This document shows positions 9,978 through 20,731 of a stretch of DNA of 64,000 bases, in pieces. Below the pieces are notes generated by a model. That model worked only from the letters and a program-made list of their open reading frames with translations, made no database searches and was not told where the DNA came from. The stretch lies in assembly GCF_000011485.1 (NCBI RefSeq), contig NC_005071.1, forward strand, positions 2,049,347 through 2,113,346. Reading direction: 5' to 3'. A program made the position numbers and the translations under genes. The DNA comes from Prochlorococcus marinus str. MIT 9313 (GTDB taxonomy: Bacteria; Cyanobacteriota; Cyanobacteriia; PCC-6307; Cyanobiaceae). Within the stretch, counting starts at the first letter, position 1, and each line of letters begins with the position of its first letter.

Positions 9978-10050
<73 letters not shown>

Positions 10051-10086
10051 ATCACAGGGAATTATGCCCTCAATGCATGATGGAAG

Positions 10087-10489
10087 CTGAAAGCAGGTGA
10101 GGTGTTCGCGATCAAGTTGTCATTGCCCTTGGCAAGACGAGCTTGGTTGAGGAAAGTCCGGGCTCCCCGATGGCCAGACTTGCTGGGTAATGCCCAGTGC
10201 GGGTGACCGTGAGGAGAGTGCCACAGAAAAACACCGCCGATGGCCTCATGGGGTTCTACTCCGGGCACAGGCAAGGGTGCAAAGGTGCGGTAAGAGCGCA
10301 CCAGCAGCATCGAGAGGTGCTGGCTCGGTAAACCCCGGTTGGGAGCAAGGCCAAGGGGCGATGGCTGGCCATCTGCCACGTTCCACATAAATGCGCCGCT
10401 TGAGGCCGTCGGTAACGGCGGTCCTAGATAGATGAGCACCCACTGCTCTTGAGCAGTGAACAGAACCCGGCTTACGAACTGCTTTCACC
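10087..10489 (+). ncRNA. rnpB: RNase P RNA
   Basis: This is the catalytic RNA of RNase P, which cuts 5' leaders from pre-tRNAs. The universally conserved blocks are present: GAGGAAAGTCCGGGCTCC near 10149-10166 near the 5' end, and ACAGAACCCGGCTTACG near 10460-10476 near the 3' end. The terminal P1 helix is visible as TGAAAGCAG (10088-10096) pairing with CTGCTTTCA (10479-10487), which sets the ends to within a few bases. The internal GGTAAACCCC-like segment near 10328 also fits. The length of about 400 bases is usual for type A bacterial molecules. It is divergent from the tRNA-Arg gene and 57 bases upstream of rnc, so two RNA-processing genes are adjacent. Confidence 0.95.
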
Positions 10490-10546
10490 CTCTTCCCTAA
10501 CGCTGTTGATCAATCTGCAGAGAAGACCAGACAATCCATCCTTAGC

Positions 10547-11395
10547 GTGATGACTCATCGATCGAAGACGAAAACATCCCGAACAACCCCAAAAAACCTC
10601 TCTAACGAACGGGTCCAGCAACTACAAAACCTGCTGCAGAAACTCGCGCTGGTGGATCCTGCACGATCAAAAAGCTGCCCTGGAACTGAACCGAGAGGTC
10701 TAGCCGTTATCGATGAAGCACTGACGCACACCTCAGCTCAAGAAATCATCAACCACGAGCGCCTGGAATTCCTTGGCGACGCAGTTCTGCGGCTAGCCGC
10801 CTCGGAATATATCGATCGCCACTTCCCGCGCATGAATGTAGGCGAGCGCTCGGCATTAAGAGCTCACCTTGTGAGTGATCGCTGGCTAGCCGAAGTCGGT
10901 CAACGTATCGGCATCGAATCAGTACTCATCATCGGACCCATGGCTGCAGGGGATGCCTCTGCTAAACCCACCCTGCAGGCTGAAGCAACCGAAGCGTTGA
11001 TTGGAGCGCTCTATGAGTGCTGGCAAAGCCTTGAGCCAATCCACCGCTGGCTCACACCTCACTGGCAAGAGGCAAGCAGTGCGGTGCTAACCGATCCTCA
11101 TCGACTGAACAGCAAATCCGCGCTGCAGGAATGGAGCCAGGCAAGGGGGCTCGGGCTACCCCGCTACGAATGTGCAGAACGCAGCAAGCAACATGGAGAT
11201 CCTCAACGTTATGTTTGCCAAGTTCATCTCGATGATCGGCCAATTGGAGAGGGTTGGGGAGGCTCCCGCCGCAATGCCGAGCAAGAGGCAGCTCGCCGCT
11301 CACTACAGGCACTCACCCAATCAGCCAACGACAACTCAAGCCGAACTGAACAGAAAGCCATGCTCCTGAAAGATGGAGATCAATCTCCTTGCTGA
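10547..11395 (+). CDS. rnc: Ribonuclease III
   Basis: The 282-residue enzyme cleaves double-stranded RNA in rRNA maturation and mRNA decay. Residues from about 73-81 contain the RNase III signature HERLEFLGDAVL with the catalytic acidic residues, followed by LRAHLVSD and by EATEALIGALYE, which supplies the second metal-binding Glu cluster. The C-terminal third is a double-stranded RNA-binding domain ending in GGSRRNAEQEAARRSLQAL. The N-terminal 25 residues are basic and not conserved in the family. The protein is somewhat longer than the roughly 230-residue E. coli enzyme. An immediately following second ATG (10550) could also be used. Its 3' end faces the small ndhS gene. Confidence 0.95.
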   Translation: MMTHRSKTKTSRTTPKNLSNERVQQLQNLLQKLALVDPARSKSCPGTEPRGLAVIDEALTHTSAQEIINHERLEFLGDAVLRLAASEYIDRHFPRMNVGERSALRAHLVSDRWLAEVGQRIGIESVLIIGPMAAGDASAKPTLQAEATEALIGALYECWQSLEPIHRWLTPHWQEASSAVLTDPHRLNSKSALQEWSQARGLGLPRYECAERSKQHGDPQRYVCQVHLDDRPIGEGWGGSRRNAEQEAARRSLQALTQSANDNSSRTEQKAMLLKDGDQSPC

Positions 11396-11438
11396 CTAGA
11401 GAAAATCAGTGGCAGCAGTGAAGGGACTGCCAAAAACC

Positions 11439-11654
11439 TCAAGCCAGCAAAAGATGTTTCAGAGGGATCGTGACCAACTTGTCCCAGTTCCCCCCCTCAA
11501 ACAAGACCGCAGCTCGATCTCCACTGATACGTTGCACACATCCGCTATAGCCGTTGTAGATCGAGCGAATCTCATTCACAACCACATTGGAACCAGGCAA
11601 GATCAGTGCTTCTACAGAGGCCATGAGATCAACTTTTGGCAGTCTTAGCGCCAT
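11439..11654 (-). CDS. ndhS: NDH-1 subunit NdhS-like protein (DUF3252)
   Basis: The 71-residue product has a small SH3-like barrel pattern ([45 protein letters not shown]) that I recall from cyanobacterial NdhS. NdhS helps form the ferredoxin-binding site of the photosynthetic NDH-1 complex on the thylakoid membrane. An internal ATG at 11624 would give a 61-residue protein starting closer to the conserved region, so the true start is uncertain. The assigned start overlaps the possible upstream extension of rimM on the opposite strand, so the two genes share a tiny divergent control region. Assignment is from memory of the family, not a search. Confidence 0.75.
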
Positions 11655-11665
11655 TATCAGCAGAC

Positions 11666-12211
11666 ATGCTTTCTCCGCCCATGAACGGCGACGAAGACTG
11701 GCTCACCGTGGGAAAAGTGGTGGCCGCCCAAGGAATGCAAGGTGAACTACGCATCAACCCCAGCAGTGACTTCCCTGAACGCTTCACTCTTCCTGGTCAA
11801 CGCTGGCTCAAAGAACGCAACGGTGAGCCACGACCTATTGAATTGCTGACTGGACGTCAACTACCTGGCAGGTCGCTCTATGTCGTGAAATTTGCTGGGG
11901 TGAACAATCGCAATGCGGCCGAAGCGCTTGTAGGCCAAAAACTACTGGTGCCTTCAAGTGATCGTCCTAGCCTGGCCGAAGGCGAGTTTCACCTGCTTGA
12001 TTTAGTCGGCCTCGAAGCCCGTTTGCAAGCCGAAGGCCCTGCAATCGGTCATGTCATCGACCTCACCACCGCCGGGAACGACCTCCTCGAGATCGAATTA
12101 CTGACAGGAAGGCGGGTTCTGGTTCCATTCGTAGAAGCCATCGTTCCAGAAGTGCAACTCAATCAAGGCTGGCTCCGACTCACCCCACCTCCTGGACTGC
12201 TAGAGCTCTAA
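11666..12211 (+). CDS. rimM: 16S rRNA processing protein RimM
   Basis: The product of about 181 residues assists maturation of the 30S subunit head. The N-terminal RimM domain is seen in [19 protein letters not shown], with [16 protein letters not shown] in the middle. The PRC-barrel domain follows, with [13 protein letters not shown], then GNDLLEIEL and [13 protein letters not shown]. The frame extends upstream to a TTG at 11636 that would overlap ndhS. The ATG at 11666, or the one at 11681, just before the conserved [12 protein letters not shown], is a better start. The gene is followed after 56 bases by manC. Confidence 0.93.
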
Positions 12212-12267
12212 GCAATCGACAGAAGCAAGATATCTAAGCGATTCTGGGAACACTGAAGTAGCAAACC

Positions 12268-13722
12268 GTGGCGACCCCCCCCCTGATTCCAGTAATCCTC
12301 TGTGGGGGAACAGGTACCCGCCTTTGGCCGCTGTCGCGCGCGAGCTACCCCAAGCAGTACTGGGCTCTAAGCGGCTCCAGTGAAGAAACGCTGCTTCAGC
12401 AAACACAACAAAGACTGAAAGGCATCGAGGGGCTTAGTGCGCCACTGCTGATCTGCAACGAAGAGCATCGCTTCATCGTGGCCGAGCAGATGCGCCAAAT
12501 CGATGTGGAGCCCAATGCAATCCTGCTCGAGCCCATGGGTCGCAATACCGCTCCAGCAGTAACAGTGGCGGCACTGCAAGCCACAGAACGAGGCGAAGAT
12601 CCGATCCTGCTAGTTCTGGCTGCAGACCATGTCATACGCAATGCAACCCAGTTCCGTCATATCATCGAAGCCGGGCGCATCCCCGCAGAAGCCGGGCGAC
12701 TTGTGACCTTCGGCATCGTGCCCACCGCCCCTGAAACAGGTTACGGATATATCGAAGCAGCAGAATCATTCGGCAACGGTGAACCCAAAGCCGTACCCAT
12801 TGCCAGGTTTGTGGAAAAACCTGATCGCATCGCCGCAGAGCAGTTCCTCGCAAATGGATGCTTCACCTGGAACAGTGGCATGTTTATGTTCAAAGCGAGC
12901 GCCATCCTGAGCGAGCTGGAGCGACTATCTCCCGAGGTGGTGAGCTGTTGCCGTGCTGCCCTGGAGCAGGAAGTGCCAGACCTCGACTTCTTGCGGCTGG
13001 AACGTGAAGCCTTCGCCAAATGTCCAAACGTTGCTATCGATGTCGCCGTCATGGAAAAAACTGAGCTGGGCACGGTGCTGCCTCTCGATGCTGGCTGGAG
13101 TGACGTGGGCAGCTGGAGTGCCCTATGGAACACCACTGATCGAGATCTGAACGGCAACGTTCTACGAGGTCATGTCATCGCTGAAAGCAGTCGAAATTGT
13201 TACCTACGTAGCGAACATCGCCTGGTGGTAGGCCTAGGAGTAGAAGACCTTGTTGTGGTTGAAACGGACGACGCAGTACTGATTGCCAACCGTAATCAAG
13301 CCCAGGACGTAAAAACGATTGTGAAGCAATTGGAGGCGGATGGAAGCCCGGAAGGCAAAGCTCACCGCAAGATCTATCGACCCTGGGGGCATTACACCTC
13401 TGTGGTGAAAGACAGTCGCTGGCAGGTCAAACATATCGAGTTAAAACCTGGTGCAAGCCTCTCACTACAAATGCACCATCACCGTGCTGAGCACTGGATC
13501 GTGGTCAAGGGAACCGCCTTAGTCGAAAAGGACGGAGACAAGCAATTGGTAGGAGAAAACCAGAGCACCTACATCCCTTTGGGCTGCAAACACAGACTCA
13601 CCAATCCAGGACGAATGCCTATGGAATTGATTGAGGTACAAAGTGGCCCATACCTCTGTGAAGATGACATCGTGCGCTTTGAGGACCGCTACGGACGTAG
13701 TGAAAGCGTGATCGTCAATTGA
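12268..13722 (+). CDS. manC: Mannose-1-phosphate guanylyltransferase / mannose-6-phosphate isomerase
   Basis: This 484-residue bifunctional-type enzyme makes GDP-mannose, the donor for surface mannans and for fucose-type sugars. The nucleotidyltransferase domain starts with VILCGGTGTRLWPLSRASYP and contains GRNTAPA, LAADHVI and FVEKPD. The C-terminal cupin domain, with the LKPGASLSLQMHHHRAEHW metal-binding segment near residue 392, is the type II phosphomannose isomerase module. The start is a GTG 29 bases before the conserved loop. The 3' end is 7 bases from the convergent glmS gene, with no terminator between. It feeds the surface-polysaccharide functions suggested by genes further along the window. 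Confidence 0.96.
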   Translation: MATPPLIPVILCGGTGTRLWPLSRASYPKQYWALSGSSEETLLQQTQQRLKGIEGLSAPLLICNEEHRFIVAEQMRQIDVEPNAILLEPMGRNTAPAVTVAALQATERGEDPILLVLAADHVIRNATQFRHIIEAGRIPAEAGRLVTFGIVPTAPETGYGYIEAAESFGNGEPKAVPIARFVEKPDRIAAEQFLANGCFTWNSGMFMFKASAILSELERLSPEVVSCCRAALEQEVPDLDFLRLEREAFAKCPNVAIDVAVMEKTELGTVLPLDAGWSDVGSWSALWNTTDRDLNGNVLRGHVIAESSRNCYLRSEHRLVVGLGVEDLVVVETDDAVLIANRNQAQDVKTIVKQLEADGSPEGKAHRKIYRPWGHYTSVVKDSRWQVKHIELKPGASLSLQMHHHRAEHWIVVKGTALVEKDGDKQLVGENQSTYIPLGCKHRLTNPGRMPMELIEVQSGPYLCEDDIVRFEDRYGRSESVIVN

Positions 13723-13729
13723 GCTTGAG

Positions 13730-15634
13730 CTATTCCACCGTCACACTTTTGGCGAGATTGCGTGGCTGATCCACATCAAGACCCCTATGAGCTGCAATGT
13801 GATAGCTCAGTAGCTGTATCGGAACAAGCGTGAGCAAGGGGCTGATCCACTCGCTCACCTCAGGGACAGGAAGCAAAGCATCAAACAAGGCCGTATCCGG
13901 ACACTCCGGCGCCACACCGATCAGCTTTGCATCACGCGCTTTCGCCTCCTGGGCATTGCTGAGCACCTTCTCAAAAACCACTCCAGGCATCGCAATCGAG
14001 ACCACCGGCACACGCGCATCGAGCAAAGCAATCGGTCCATGCTTCATTTCCCCAGCTGGGTAGCCCTCTGCATGGATATAGCTGATCTCCTTAAGCTTGA
14101 GAGCTCCCTCAAGGGCAATGGGATAGTTGATGCCACGACCCAAAAAGATCACATCCTGAGTATCAGCGAAGCGGTTAGCTAAAACTTCGCAGCGTTGATC
14201 ATGGAGCTCTACCAGCGAGCGCAGCTGATCCGGTAAAGCCCTTAGTTCGTCTTTGAGGCTGGCAATCTCACTCAATGAGCGCTGACGACGACGAGCAGCA
14301 AATGCCAGTGCAAGCCCATAGAAAGCCAACAACTGCCCCAAGAAGGTCTTTGTAGCTGCCACCCCCACTTCAATCCCTGCGCCGATGTCGAGAATGTATG
14401 GAACCTGACGAGTCAGGGAGCTTTCTGGCCGATTCGTGACCCCTAACTGGCGAGGGGCAAATGCAGGCTCCCCATGAGCCTGCCTACGTTGAGCATCCAT
14501 CGTCAATGCCGCGAGAGTATCTGCGGTCTCCCCAGACTGAGTCACACCAATCGTGAGTGTGTGGGGTGCTAGTGGAGGCGGTGCATAGCGAAACTCACTT
14601 GCATAAAAGACAGAAGTGGGAATCCCCGCGAACTGCTCCAACAAATAGGCCCCTACAAGTGCCGCATGACGACTCGTGCCACAGGCCAAAATCTGAATTC
14701 GCTCTAGATCGGCATAAAAGGAATGATCCAAGGGCAAAGCCACAGGCTCATCAGACGAGAGATCTGGAGGCAAATGACGTGCTACCCACAGCTCCGCAGT
14801 CTCAGGCTGCTCGTGGATTTCCTTGAGCATGAAATGACGGAAGTGACGTTTATCGGCCACTTGATCACCGCCACTGAGCAGTGAAGGGCTTCGCTGCTGC
14901 CGTTCACCTTGTGCGTTGTAAAGCTCAATCCCCAAAGGCGTGAGCAAGGCCACCTCACCATCCTCCATAGGAAGAATCGTGCGCGTGAAGCCTGCCAAAG
15001 CTGGCGTATCACTTGCGCAGAGGAATTCACCTTCGCCAAGACCAATCAACAGCGGCGCCTGCTTGCGTGCAACGACAAGAGCACCTGGTACTTCCGCCCA
15101 AACCACTGCCAGGGCATAGGCACCCTTCAACTGGGGCAACACCCGTTGCACAGCTTCTAACAACATCCTTCCATTCACGACACGGTCCTGAACCTGCAGA
15201 GCACGAAGTTCAAGCGAGATGAGATGAGGAATGACTTCCGTATCTGTCTCTGAAACAAACCTCACCCCTTCAGCCTCAAGTGCCTCGCGGAGAGAACGGT
15301 GATTCTCGATAATGCCGTTCTGCACTACCGCCACAAGACCAGAGCCATCCCTATGGGGATGAGCATTGCGCTCTTCAGGTTTGCCATGGGTGGCCCAACG
15401 GGTGTGGCCGATACCGCAATGCCCTGGCGCACCCTTCTCTTCCACACATGCTGTGAGGTTTACCAGCTTTCCTTGAGCCCGCTGACAAGTGAGCCGACTG
15501 GAACCATCCTCAGCTAACAGTTCAACAGTGGCAAGACCAGCAGAGTCGTAACCGCGGTATTCGAGCTGCCTAAGCCCTTCTAACAGCAACGGGGCCGCCT
15601 CACGAGAGCCAATAACCGCAACGATTCCGCACAT
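13730..15634 (-). CDS. glmS: Glucosamine-fructose-6-phosphate aminotransferase
   Basis: The 634-residue enzyme converts fructose-6-phosphate and glutamine into glucosamine-6-phosphate, the first step to UDP-GlcNAc for peptidoglycan. The glutaminase domain begins MCGIVAVIGS, where Cys2 becomes the N-terminal nucleophile after Met removal, and contains GIGHTRWATHG and NGIIENH. The second half holds two SIS sugar isomerase domains (ACGTSRHAALVGAYLLE, GVTQSGETADTLAAL, LGRGINYPIALEGALKLKE) and ends in the conserved PRNLAKSVTVE. It is slightly longer than the 609-residue E. coli enzyme. The start cannot move because of Cys2, and the psaC terminator U-tract abuts this ATG directly, leaving no room for a ribosome binding site. 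No glmS ribozyme was recognised upstream. Confidence 0.97.
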   Translation of the reverse strand: MCGIVAVIGSREAAPLLLEGLRQLEYRGYDSAGLATVELLAEDGSSRLTCQRAQGKLVNLTACVEEKGAPGHCGIGHTRWATHGKPEERNAHPHRDGSGLVAVVQNGIIENHRSLREALEAEGVRFVSETDTEVIPHLISLELRALQVQDRVVNGRMLLEAVQRVLPQLKGAYALAVVWAEVPGALVVARKQAPLLIGLGEGEFLCASDTPALAGFTRTILPMEDGEVALLTPLGIELYNAQGERQQRSPSLLSGGDQVADKRHFRHFMLKEIHEQPETAELWVARHLPPDLSSDEPVALPLDHSFYADLERIQILACGTSRHAALVGAYLLEQFAGIPTSVFYASEFRYAPPPLAPHTLTIGVTQSGETADTLAALTMDAQRRQAHGEPAFAPRQLGVTNRPESSLTRQVPYILDIGAGIEVGVAATKTFLGQLLAFYGLALAFAARRRQRSLSEIASLKDELRALPDQLRSLVELHDQRCEVLANRFADTQDVIFLGRGINYPIALEGALKLKEISYIHAEGYPAGEMKHGPIALLDARVPVVSIAMPGVVFEKVLSNAQEAKARDAKLIGVAPECPDTALFDALLPVPEVSEWISPLLTLVPIQLLSYHIAAHRGLDVDQPRNLAKSVTVE

Positions 15635-15660
15635 AAAAAAAGCCCGGCACCTGCCGGGCT
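15635..15660 (-). terminator. psaC terminator abutting the glmS start codon
   Basis: On the minus strand a 9-bp stem AGCCCGGCA/TGCCGGGCT with a 2-base centre is followed by seven T residues. It lies 59 bases after the psaC stop and its T-run ends at the base before the glmS ATG. It should end psaC transcripts. Any transcript entering glmS would read through it or begin within a few bases of the start codon. Confidence 0.9.
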
Positions 15661-15719
15661 GAGCTTATGGGGTAGATGCGCAAAACAGGGACAACTGAAA
15701 CTGAGACGTTGAACTCAAA

Positions 15720-15965
15720 TCAGTAAGCCAGGCCCATACTGCGCGTGGTCTCATCGCCTAAATAAACCCGAATGCTGAGGAAATGAGTGGGGCAAGCGGT
15801 TTCGCATCGCTTGCATCCCACACAATCTTCAGTGCGAGGAGATGCAGCTATCTGGCCGGATTTATGGCCATCCCAGGGAACCATCTCGAGAACATCGAGA
15901 GGGCATGCACGAACGCATTGAGTGCAACCAATGCATGTGTCGTAAATCTTGACAGCGTGAGACAT
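15720..15965 (-). CDS. psaC: Photosystem I iron-sulfur subunit PsaC
   Basis: The 81-residue protein binds the terminal [4Fe-4S] clusters FA and FB on the stromal side of photosystem I and passes electrons to ferredoxin. Both CxxCxxCxxxCP motifs are complete: Cys11, 14, 17 and 21, and Cys48, 51, 54 and 58. The [14 protein letters not shown] start and the TRSMGLAY ending are diagnostic. The open frame extends 15 codons further upstream, but the 81-residue start at 15965 fits the nearly invariant family length. It is transcribed divergently from acpP across 138 bases and ends at the strong terminator at 15635-15660. Confidence 0.99.
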
Positions 15966-16103
15966 GAGCCTGGTCCGGAACAAAAGGCTTGAAGTAACGG
16001 TAACTGGCAAGACTCCTAGTGAGACAAGTTCGACGTGTTGCCGTCACCGTTGTTAACCCCACTACCGCCAGCTCGTAGGATGCATCGTCCCGTCTTCACG
16101 GCT

Positions 16104-16346
16104 ATGTCCCAGGAAGCGATCCTTGAGAAAGTCCGTTCAATCGTTACGGAGCAACTGAGTGTTGAGGCCGGCGAAGTGAAGCCAGAATCGAGTTTTCAGA
16201 ACGACCTTGGTGCCGACTCCCTCGACACCGTGGAACTCGTGATGGCCCTCGAAGAGGCCTTTGATATCGAGATCCCAGACGAGGCGGCTGAGGGCATCAC
16301 GACCGTCGGTGATGCCGTCAAGTACATCGAAGACAAGCAAGCCTGA
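16104..16346 (+). CDS. acpP: Acyl carrier protein
   Basis: The 80-residue acidic protein carries growing acyl chains on a phosphopantetheine arm. The attachment site is Ser39 in [16 protein letters not shown]. The start [14 protein letters not shown] at 16104 gives the standard length; the frame runs 23 codons further upstream with unrelated residues and is not used. The next gene, fabF, begins 8 bases after the stop, so the two are very likely co-transcribed, as in many bacteria. Confidence 0.98.
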
Positions 16347-16354
16347 GGATCGGC

Positions 16355-17602
16355 ATGATGGAGGATCTCCATCGGGTTGTGATCACCGGTCTCGGAGCGG
16401 TCACACCGATTGGCAACACGGTCGCGGACTATTTAGAAGGGTTGAAGACAGCCAACAATGGCGTAGGCGCCATAAGCCTGTTTGACGCGTCAGCCCATGC
16501 ATGTCGCTTTGCCGCAGAGGTCAAAGACTTTGACCCAACCGGTTTCCTCGAAGCGAAGGAATCAAAAAGATGGGATCGATTCAGCAAATTCGGTGTTGTA
16601 GCAGCCAAGCAGGCAGTTGCTGATGCCGGGCTAAGCATCGAAGAGGAAAATTCCTCCCGCATCGGGGTGATTATTGGTTCAGGTGTCGGTGGTCTGCTCA
16701 CCATGGAGACCCAAGCCCACGTTTTGAATGAGAAAGGTCCCGGTCGGGTCAGCCCATTCACAGTGCCGATGATGATCCCCAACATGGCTACTGGGCTTGC
16801 CGCCATTGCGTTGGGGGCCAAAGGACCCAGCTCAGCAGTGGCCACAGCCTGTGCAGCTGGATCCAATGCCATCGGCGATGCCTTCCGGCTGCTGCAACTC
16901 GGCAAAGCGGATGTCATGGTGTGTGGTGGTGCAGAAGCAAGCATCACACCACTAGGTGTGGCTGGCTTCGCCAGTGCCAAGGCCCTCTCCTTCCGCAATG
17001 ACGACCCCACCACGGCTAGCCGTCCGTTCGATGCAGAACGAGATGGATTCGTCATCGGTGAAGGCTCTGGCGTCCTGGTCCTTGAAACCCTTGAGCACGC
17101 CAAAAATCGCGATGCCACGATCCATGCTGAGATTGTGGGCTATGGCATGACCTGCGATGCCCACCACATCACTGCCCCAACCCCTGGCGGCGTTGGTGGT
17201 GCAGAAGCAATCCGCCTGGCCCTAAAAGACGGAAAGCTGGAGCCCACCAGCGTGGATTACATCAATGCCCATGGCACCAGTACTCCTGCCAATGACAGCA
17301 ACGAAACAGCAGCCATCAAAAATGCTCTCGGCGAAAGGGCTTCTCAGATTCCTGTGAGCTCCACAAAATCCATGACGGGTCACCTTCTTGGTGGATCGGG
17401 CGGCATTGAAGCTGTGGCGTGCGTGCTTGCCCTTCAGCACGACATGGTGCCTCCCACAATTAATTACCTCAACCCAGATCCACAGTGTGATCTCGACTAT
17501 GTCCCCAACATGGCCAGAGAACACAGATTAAGCGTGGTGCTCTCCAATTCCTTCGGCTTCGGCGGCCACAACGTCTGCCTCGCCTTCCGCCAAATGCCCT
17601 AA
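16355..17602 (+). CDS. fabF: Beta-ketoacyl-ACP synthase II
   Basis: The 415-residue condensing enzyme elongates acyl-ACP with malonyl-ACP. The catalytic triad is visible: Cys166 in [10 protein letters not shown], a His in [16 protein letters not shown] and a His in [14 protein letters not shown]. The C-terminal NSFGFGGHN glycine loop is present. The N-terminus [20 protein letters not shown] is typical; either of the first two Met codons may be used. It follows acpP by 8 bases and is 52 bases ahead of tkt on the same strand. Confidence 0.98.
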
Positions 17603-17654
17603 GCGGCTCTACCGCCTCCATCCTTCAGACTCCCTGCTATCCCATCTCAACACC

Positions 17655-19664
17655 ATGGTCGCTGCGACTGCTTCCCTAGACACGCTCTGCATCAACAGCA
17701 TTCGCATGCTGGCCGTCGATGCGGTCAACAAGGCCAACAGCGGCCACCCTGGTCTTCCCATGGGCTGTGCCCCCATGGGCTACACCCTCTGGGACCAATT
17801 TCTGCATCACAACCCCAAGAATCCTCAGTGGTTCAACCGCGACCGCTTTGTCCTCTCAGCAGGTCACGGCTGCATGTTGGTTTACGCGCTGTTGCATCTC
17901 ACCGGGTATGACTCGGTAAGCATCGAGGACATCAAGCAGTTCCGCCAATGGGGCTCCCGCACTCCTGGACATCCCGAAACATTTGAAACCCCTGGAGTCG
18001 AAGTCACCGCAGGCCCCCTTGGTGCTGGGATCTCTAATGCCGTTGGCCTTGCGATCGCTGAAGCTCACCTTGCGGCCAAATTCAATAAACCCGAAGCAAA
18101 GATCGTTGATCACTACACCTACGTGGTGATGGGCGATGGCTGCAACCAAGAAGGTATTGCCTCGGAGGCCTGCTCCCTTGCCGGCCACCTCAAGCTAGGA
18201 AAACTGATCGCCCTCTACGACGACAACCACATCACGATCGACGGCCGCACAGACGTTTCCTTCACCGAAGACGTGCTCAAGCGCTACGAGGCCTATGGCT
18301 GGCATGTACAACATGTCGCCAATGGCGACACCGACGTGAATGCCATCGCCAAGGCGATCGCTGCCGCCAAGGCCGTGACCGATAAGCCTTCGATTATCAA
18401 GGTGACCACCACCATTGGTTACGGCTCCCCTAACAAAAGCGATACTGCCGGCGTGCACGGGGCCCCCCTTGGCGAAGAAGAAGCCACTCTCACTCGCCAA
18501 CAACTGGGATGGAACTATGGCCCTTTTGAAATTCCCCAAGAGGCCTACGACCAATACCGCAAGGCCATCGATCAAGGCGCTCGCCTTGAATCTGAGTGGA
18601 ATCAAGCACTCGCCAACTACAGAAGTCAATACCCAAATGAAGCAGCTGAATTCGAGCGGATGTTGCGCGGTGAGCTTCCCAAGGGGTGGGAAAAAGATCT
18701 ACCGACCTATACCCCTGCAGACAGCGGCCTCGCAACGCGTAAGCACTCCCAGATCTGCCTGGGCGCTCTCGGCCCAAACCTACCGGAACTCATCGGCGGC
18801 TCTGCCGACCTCACTCACTCCAATTACACCGATATCAAAGGTGAAACCGGCTCCTTCCAACCGGAAACACCCGAAAAGCGTTATCTACATTTCGGTGTGC
18901 GCGAGCACGCCATGGCCGCCATCCTCAATGGCATCGCTTACCACAACAGTGGCCTAATCCCCTACGGCGGAACCTTCCTGGTTTTTGCTGACTACATGCG
19001 CGGATCAATGCGCCTTTCAGCCTTAAGTGAGCTTGGCGTGATCTACGTACTCACCCATGACTCAATCGGCGTCGGTGAAGATGGGCCTACCCACCAACCG
19101 GTCGAAACCATTCCCTCCCTGCGCGCCATGCCAAACATGCTGGTGTTCCGTCCCGGAGATGGTAATGAGACCAGCGGAGCGTACAAAGTAGCCATCCAGA
19201 ATCGCAAACGCCCCAGCTCTCTTTGCCTGAGCCGTCAGGGCATGGCCAACCAAGCCAATTCATCCATCGAAAATGTCGCTCTCGGCGGCTACGTGCTGGA
19301 AGATTGCGAAGGCACAGCTGATCTGATCCTGATCGGTACAGGCACAGAGCTTGACCTTTGCGTGCAAGCCGCCAAGCAACTCAGTGCTGAAGGCCACAAG
19401 ATTCGCGTGGTCTCGATGCCTTGCGTAGAACTTTTCGAAGAGCAGAGCAGCGCATACAAACAAGAGGTGCTGCCAAACGCTGTACGCAAGCGCATCGTGG
19501 TGGAAGCCGCCGAATCATTTGGCTGGTACAAGTACATCGGCCTTGATGGCGACAGTGTGACCATGAACAGCTTTGGCGCTTCTGCACCAGGTGGCACATG
19601 CATGGAGAAATTTGGCTTCACCGTAGAGAATGTGGTAGCGAAGTCAAAAGCGTTGCTGAATTGA
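17655..19664 (+). CDS. tkt: Transketolase
   Basis: The 669-residue thiamine diphosphate enzyme moves two-carbon units between sugars in the Calvin cycle and pentose phosphate pathway. Landmarks are [13 protein letters not shown] at the N-terminus, the ThDP-binding [18 protein letters not shown] with [10 protein letters not shown], and [16 protein letters not shown] in the pyrimidine domain. The length is standard. A hairpin terminator follows about 40 bases after the stop. The position just after acpP-fabF is a small carbon-metabolism cluster. Confidence 0.98.
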
Positions 19665-19703
19665 TCTGCAAGTGAATCAATAGCTCTAGCAAGCCCCGTT
19701 TCT

Positions 19704-19736
19704 GCTCCGCATCTCTACAGGTGCGGAGCTTTGTTA
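19704..19736 (+). terminator. Probable terminator of tkt
   Basis: An 8-bp stem GCTCCGCA/TGCGGAGC encloses a 10-base loop and is followed by TTTGTTATT. It begins 39 bases after the tkt stop and precedes the sugar-nucleotide gene at 19799. The T-run is interrupted, so termination may be incomplete. Confidence 0.75.
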
Positions 19737-19798
19737 TTGATATCAAGTGAGCAGACATCTCCGCCTAGACTCAGATCTAAATATCTAACACTGACGCC

Positions 19799-20731
19799 TT
19801 GCAACCGACTCGCAATCTTGTTACCGGAGGCGCTGGTTTTCTTGGTTCGCATTTAGTCGACAGGCTCATGCAGGCGGATGAGGAAGTGATTTGCCTCGAC
19901 AACTATTTCACTGGGCGCAAAGTCAATCTTGCGCAATGGATCGAGCATCCACGCTTCGAATTAATCAGACATGATGTCACCGAACCAATCAAGCTCGAAG
20001 TTGATCGGATCTGGCATCTGGCATGCCCTGCATCACCGGTTCACTATCAGTTTAATCCGATTAAAACAGCCAAAACCAGTTTTCTTGGTACCTACAACAT
20101 GCTTGGCCTCGCACGCAGAGTAGGCGCACGCCTACTACTCGCCAGCACCAGCGAAGTTTACGGCGATCCAGAAATTAATCCCCAGCCAGAAAGTTATCGC
20201 GGCTGCGTTAACACAATCGGGATTCGCAGCTGTTACGACGAGGGAAAGCGAATCGCAGAAACACTCTGCTTCGACTACCAGCGCATCCATGCCACGGAGA
20301 TCAGAGTGATGCGCATCTTCAATACTTATGGCCCCCGAATGTTGCCCGATGACGGCAGGGTGGTGAGCAACTTCATCATGCAGGCACTACGTGGTGAACC
20401 ACTAACCCTGTACGGAGATGGCCTACAAACACGTTCATTCTGTTATGTGGATGATCTCATTGAAGGCATGTTGCGCCTCATGAACAGTGATACAACTGGA
20501 CCCATTAACATCGGCAACCCCAGTGAATTCACGATTCGCCAACTAGCAGAGTTAGTTCGCAATAGCATCCAACCCAATCTGCCTTTAATCTCAAAGCCCT
20601 TGCCTCAAGACGATCCAATGCAACGCCAGCCAATAATCGACTTAGCAAAAAAAGAACTGGACTGGGAACCATTGATTCAACTTGAAGATGGACTAACAAG
20701 AACGATCGACTGGTTTCGCAAGCAACTATAA
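19799..20731 (+). CDS. UDP-glucuronate decarboxylase-type NAD-dependent epimerase/dehydratase
   Basis: The 310-residue short-chain dehydrogenase begins with the NAD-binding [16 protein letters not shown] and has the [19 protein letters not shown] and [17 protein letters not shown] segments typical of UXS enzymes, which convert UDP-glucuronate to UDP-xylose. The catalytic pair is in CYDEGKR (Tyr and Lys), and TSEVYGDP supplies the Thr/Ser. UDP-xylose would feed surface polysaccharides. The start is a TTG, with no ATG before the Rossmann loop. Other sugar-nucleotide epimerases share these motifs, so the exact product is inferred. Confidence 0.9.

Follow-up and report, generated by a model that had tools for sequence, protein, structure and literature searches.

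The stretch of DNA analysed here (the window, 64,000 nucleotides) represents positions 2049347-2113346 of the 2,410,873-base single-contig genome of Prochlorococcus marinus str. MIT 9313. Within it psaC and glmS lie on the same strand, 85 nt apart, and the features of this junction are as follows.

15720..15965, minus strand: psaC, photosystem I iron-sulfur subunit, 81 aa, the upstream gene (TIGR03048, 181 bits, above the cut-off)
15661..15671, minus strand: conserved element CCCATAAGCTC, interpreted as the -10 region of glmS and flanks (from conservation and decoupling in four genomes)
15662..15667, minus strand: predicted -10 hexamer TAAGCT, fitting TANNNT (weakly based, on diverged copies)
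15641..15660, minus strand: psaC intrinsic-terminator hairpin, 8 bp, loop AGGT (hairpin prediction)
15655, minus strand: predicted glmS transcription start, a G 7 nt past the hexamer in the 5' arm of the hairpin (from hexamer spacing)
15635..15641, minus strand: T7 tract, the first T paired in the stem, touching the glmS ATG (read from the sequence)
13730..15634, minus strand: glmS, glutamine--fructose-6-phosphate transaminase, 634 aa (TIGR01135, 731 bits, above the cut-off)

The identities of psaC and glmS are firmly established. ORF calling places the start of glmS at 15634, upstream of it the frame stays open for just 10 codons (644 versus 634 aa) with no ATG, GTG or TTG among them, and GlmS is matched from residue 2 by TIGR01135 and from residue 1 by PRK00331, all of which upholds the fixed start assumed in an initial sequence-only reading of this locus. 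The minus strand at 15660-15641 reads AGCCCGGC-AGGT-GCCGGGCT, followed by T through 15635 and the glmS ATG at 15634, and 59 nt separate the end of psaC (15720) from the hairpin. The same reading had correctly placed a terminator hairpin downstream of psaC ending at the glmS ATG, and had rightly counted seven T residues, of which six are unpaired, the first being paired with the A that opens the stem; its 9-bp stem is amended here to 8 bp with a 4-nt loop, a ninth pair leaving a loop of 2 nt. It was also right that no space remains for a Shine-Dalgarno site before glmS, the T-tract of the terminator abutting the fixed ATG. The element CCCATAAGCTC lies directly 5' of the hairpin.

GlmS was present in 388 of 400 family genomes, and the psaC-glmS junction was read in 151 cases, comprising 30 loci from the GlmS search, three further family loci and 100 plus 18 fetched stretches; these derive mainly from the best GlmS matches, and close relatives are over-represented. 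One locus (L094) was left out as it gave no match to the glmS start pattern. The element, variants included, stood directly 5' of a strict terminator following psaC in 117 junctions, and 18 more had the psaC terminator without the element; the rest held both features apart (4, including an ambiguous hit in L208), the element without a strict terminator (5) or neither (7, including L137, in which psaC is cut short). Comparison of the junction across relatives, as proposed in the sequence-only reading, showed that the terminator adjoining the element is kept in 117/151 and that exact touching is strain-specific. Among the 117 coupled junctions the T-run touched the ATG in 5, lay within 5 nt of it in 50 and was up to 71 nt away in the others; exact touching was seen in two of the five genomes of the window's own genus, with CT intervening in the other three. 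In L137 (G235) psaC seems to be cut after about 14 codons, passing almost directly into the T-run and the glmS ATG, which is perhaps an assembly fault. Outside the family, glmS was found within 900 nt of psaC in 3 of the 19 loci read, using the strict start pattern, and in two of these three (L101, L102) the terminator was followed by a TACGAT hexamer.

A search of the 2.41-Mb genome for the exact stem GCCCGGC-N3..7-GCCGGGC found a single site and, because in addition a coupled terminator follows psaC in 117 of 151 junctions, the hairpin is not a product of chance. Paired stem changes in relatives were few (GCCCAGC/GCTGGGC in L152 and AGCCAGGC/GCCTGGCT in L161). The fold of the wider junction was no more stable than that of shuffled sequence (z -0.86). 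A strict terminator scan of 424 kb of the MIT 9313 genome (the window and 18 stretches of 20 kb) identified 35 terminator-like hairpins, three of which are followed at a distance of 6-7 nt by what could be the start of a long ORF: that of glmS, one after an ahcY-like gene (L232:8675) and one with a doubtful TTG start. The touching arrangement is not unique to glmS. At L232:8600-8680 (genome about 158,675) the T-tract of this second terminator touches the ATG of a 524-aa ORF, the preceding gene being presumably ahcY. The G+C stem, short loop, T-tract and position 3' of a gene are shared with intrinsic (Rho-independent) terminators; at this junction, however, the T-tract ends at the ATG of the next gene, whose transcription start is predicted to fall within the stem. 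We consider with moderate confidence that the hairpin and T-tract form the Rho-independent terminator of psaC, as part of a whole reading in which a glmS promoter lies inside the junction.

The sequence ATAAGCTC was exact in 116 of the 151 junctions (0.08 expected from mononucleotide shuffling) and was present with at most one mismatch in 126 (about 2.5 expected after shuffling); exact copies came from 19 of 32 genera, and inspection by eye showed the sequence in junctions rich in A+T (L022) as well as in G+C (L024). Alignment was anchored on ATANGNTY, present in 110 of 133 junctions, an anchor which fixes five positions, including T1, A2 and T6, that are conserved by construction. Starting at approximately CCC at -4, conservation in the anchored columns extended into the hairpin; further upstream there was just a T-rich rise. 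The element lay 31-38 nt before glmS in 53 of the 110 anchored junctions, a roughly constant place in compact genomes, and the distance from the psaC stop to CATAAGCTC was 9-18 nt in several genomes (L162, L177, L008 and L030), the smallest gap being 9 nt (L162 and L177). As to a possible competing anti-terminator partner, the anchored columns and the widespread 8-mers listed showed no strongly conserved block further upstream. The MIT 9313 genome holds three exact copies of CCCATAAGCTC, and a genome-wide promoter motif was rejected since both other copies fall within open frames: one lies midway along a long frame with what we take to be petH-like sequence, and the other towards the end of a frame of 82 codons.

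Decoupling of the element from the terminator was detected in four genomes, all of one genus. In G351 (L210), G249 (L227) and G343 (L265) psaC has a different terminator far upstream and CCCATAAGCTCA lies 50-53 nt before glmS, and these three loci have GCCCATAAGCTCA before glmS without the hairpin; in G267 (L255) the element lies 63 nt before glmS, and a strict terminator and psaC were not found in the stretch read. A pattern search in this genus matched 5 of 42 genomes, namely three of the four decoupled genomes together with L250 and L251, where the pattern match is a two-mismatch CCCATCAGCTC. A further 14 junctions (nine from g35, two from g48, two from g51 and one from g37) had the psaC terminator without the element, and glmS stood 94-247 nt away with a different conserved stretch, TAGAAA/TAGAAC, close before it. 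Because the element is decoupled in four genomes and is absent where the terminator stands alone in 14 junctions, comparison of these sequences indicates that it goes with glmS and not with the psaC terminator. The TAGAAA/TAGAAC stretch (in g35 GATCCTTTAGAAACAGCC) was seen where CATAAGCTC is missing in L154, L166, L172, L175, L178, L182, L190, L209 and L270, and also in L028, L130, L134, L174 and L225; the TAGAAA of g35-type genomes lacks T6.

A promoter is the simplest reading of the element, because it goes with glmS, TAAGCT fits TANNNT and a G is located 7 nt further on in the 5' arm of the hairpin. The hairpin and T-tract would terminate psaC, and glmS would have its own promoter in the psaC 3' UTR, with CCCATAAGCTC (hexamer TAAGCT), directly upstream of the terminator, as the -10 region. 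Transcription of glmS would begin in the 5' arm at about 15655, the whole terminator would form only in psaC RNA, and glmS RNA would start with a leader of about 21 nt composed of the stem end and the T-tract. This RNA would be translated without a Shine-Dalgarno site, and the psaC read-through RNA, with its start codon in the hairpin region, would be poorly translated. The promoter role, the register of the hexamer, the position of the start and the outcome for translation are inferred, and a glmS promoter overlapping the psaC terminator, with a start at about 15655 and a leader of approximately 21 nt, is judged reasonably probable. The sequence-only reading had admitted just two options, translation from read-through RNA or from a nearly leaderless RNA; this choice appears too narrow, as an element that goes with glmS upstream of the hairpin predicts a leader of about 21 nt. 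The same spacing leads to a G in L210, L227 and L265 and to a C in L255.

Closely packed or overlapping transcription units are known in compact bacterial genomes, and these likewise place a downstream promoter in the 3' UTR of the upstream gene; what distinguishes the present case from such packing is that 117 of the 121 junctions scored with both have the terminator next to the element.

TAAGCT forms part of the 116 exact copies, and the register of the hexamer was assessed in diverged ones. The 35 junctions without an exact copy comprised 10 with one mismatch, 12 with two and 13 with three, the best matches with two or three mismatches often being due to chance. Among the one-mismatch copies, an unforced check, 8 of 10 kept T1, A2 and T6 (about 6 expected by chance). 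By eye, TANNNT was kept in 11 of 19 diverged copies before the hairpin near glmS (for example as TAGGAT, TACGAT or TAAGGT) and lost in eight (L163, L208, L266, L167, L147, L142, L212 and L214). The TANNNT register of the element is weakly supported by these copies, and the promoter reading draws more on the decoupling and on other lineages than on the register. CATAAG was rejected as the -10 register, being broken by CATACG and CATAGG (L098, L211, L213), in which TANNNT is kept; other copies break TANNNT. With the pattern fixed beforehand, 78 of the 93 readable junctions also had a TANNNT hexamer upstream of psaC; it was not found in the other 15, in seven of which the searched stretch ended too early. 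A consensus scan for sigma-70-like promoters found none in 10000-20000 (4.9 expected in shuffles), and in the anchored junctions there was no clear conserved -35 element, just T-rich columns at -18 to -15. A -35 element is not always needed in cyanobacterial promoters.

More bases are conserved than a -10 hexamer requires, and another constraint on the stretch may exist. It is possible, though we consider it unlikely, that CCCATAAGCTC is instead a protein-binding site or other control element of glmS and that the promoter is elsewhere, for example inside psaC. The conserved length of about 11 nt, the failure of the consensus scan to find a canonical promoter in 10000-20000 and the retention of TANNNT in only 11 of 19 diverged copies are consistent with such a site. 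However, the psaC stop-element gap falls to 9 nt in L162 and L177, so an upstream promoter would there fall inside psaC, and the fairly steady distance of the element from glmS in compact genomes (31-38 nt, 53/110) also argues against this reading.

The psaC-glmS order was also kept in 33 junctions of g18, which are small-genome Prochlorococcus, and 31 of g56 (L033-L092, L095, L096, L100 and L103), and a hairpin of 5 bp or more with three G+C pairs was found in none of these 64 junctions. TANNNT, which was demanded in the search, was found in all 33 g18 junctions 21-24 nt before glmS, 31 being TATAAT; in g56 there was no convincing single hexamer before glmS by eye. Read-through of psaC RNA into glmS is likely in these 64 junctions, with the gene order kept and the hairpin absent. 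Expression of glmS in MIT 9313 mainly from a psaC-glmS RNA, with terminator strength setting the ratio, would be compatible with two genes on the same strand at a distance of 85 nt, but the junction there carries a T-tract terminator, the start codon is buried in the predicted read-through fold and the conserved element travels with glmS and not with the terminator; we regard this explanation as doubtful.

PMC6091082 quotes 5'-UTR lengths of 27 nt for MED4 and 29 nt for MIT9313, to which the roughly 21 nt predicted for the glmS leader come close; PMC5607370 suggests that Prochlorococcus is likely not reliant on Shine-Dalgarno sites. Folding predictions, which were made for one sequence, gave a cost of opening -12..+13 of 19.0 kcal/mol in the read-through RNA, with the AUG unpaired to no more than 3%, and costs near the start of 15.3 kcal/mol for RNA from the stem base, 10.7 from 15655 and 2.7 for a leaderless RNA. 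In the RNA from 15655 the G of the AUG was still mostly paired. The leaderless RNA, starting at or beside the ATG, is thus predicted to fold most openly, and PMC5607370 places 6-8% of the primary starts of Prochlorococcus MED4 no more than 10 nt from the start codon; the -10 position of a leaderless glmS RNA would, however, coincide with CCGGGC of the G+C stem, a sequence unlike a promoter, and such a start seems highly improbable.

A more elaborate form of the promoter reading would make the junction a composite element, in which the 5' arm serves as glmS discriminator and first transcribed bases, polymerases from psaC block glmS starts, and the hairpin and CAUAA mask the read-through AUG. 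We rate this as quite improbable; if true, strong photosystem I transcription would lower glmS output. Pairing of the element CAUA with the start UAUG occurs in the predicted fold but was not counted as evidence, a T preceding the ATG being frequent whether or not the element is present.

The feature is real but mostly ordinary, the terminator of psaC being interleaved with what is likely the promoter of glmS. A compact picocyanobacterial genome would here end one gene and begin the next within some 35 bases and with no classical leader and, if the predicted start is right, placing it in the terminator arm would allow one sequence to stop the upstream RNA and leave the downstream RNA unhindered. 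It had been proposed that terminator folding controls a link between photosystem I and amino-sugar supply, a tempting suggestion which is corrected here: such a switch is not supported by the junctions compared, because exact touching occurs in just 5 of the 117 coupled junctions and none of the 64 junctions from two streamlined Prochlorococcus genera (g18 and g56) shows the hairpin. Among the literature matches listed there was no published work on the psaC-glmS junction.

The glmS ribozyme and GlmY/GlmZ are known to control glmS and also act in front of or on this gene. The junction has no Rfam match: in 13000-17000 nothing came near a gathering score, the one hit being suhB (19.7 against 41 bits, E 0.91), and a glmS ribozyme or other Rfam cis RNA at the junction was rejected. 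Two copies of psaC were seen in one partial genome (G423). A block resembling AACAANNGTGA(C/A)GGC recurs between the divergent acpP and psaC genes, in the window at about 15966-16075 and in family loci.
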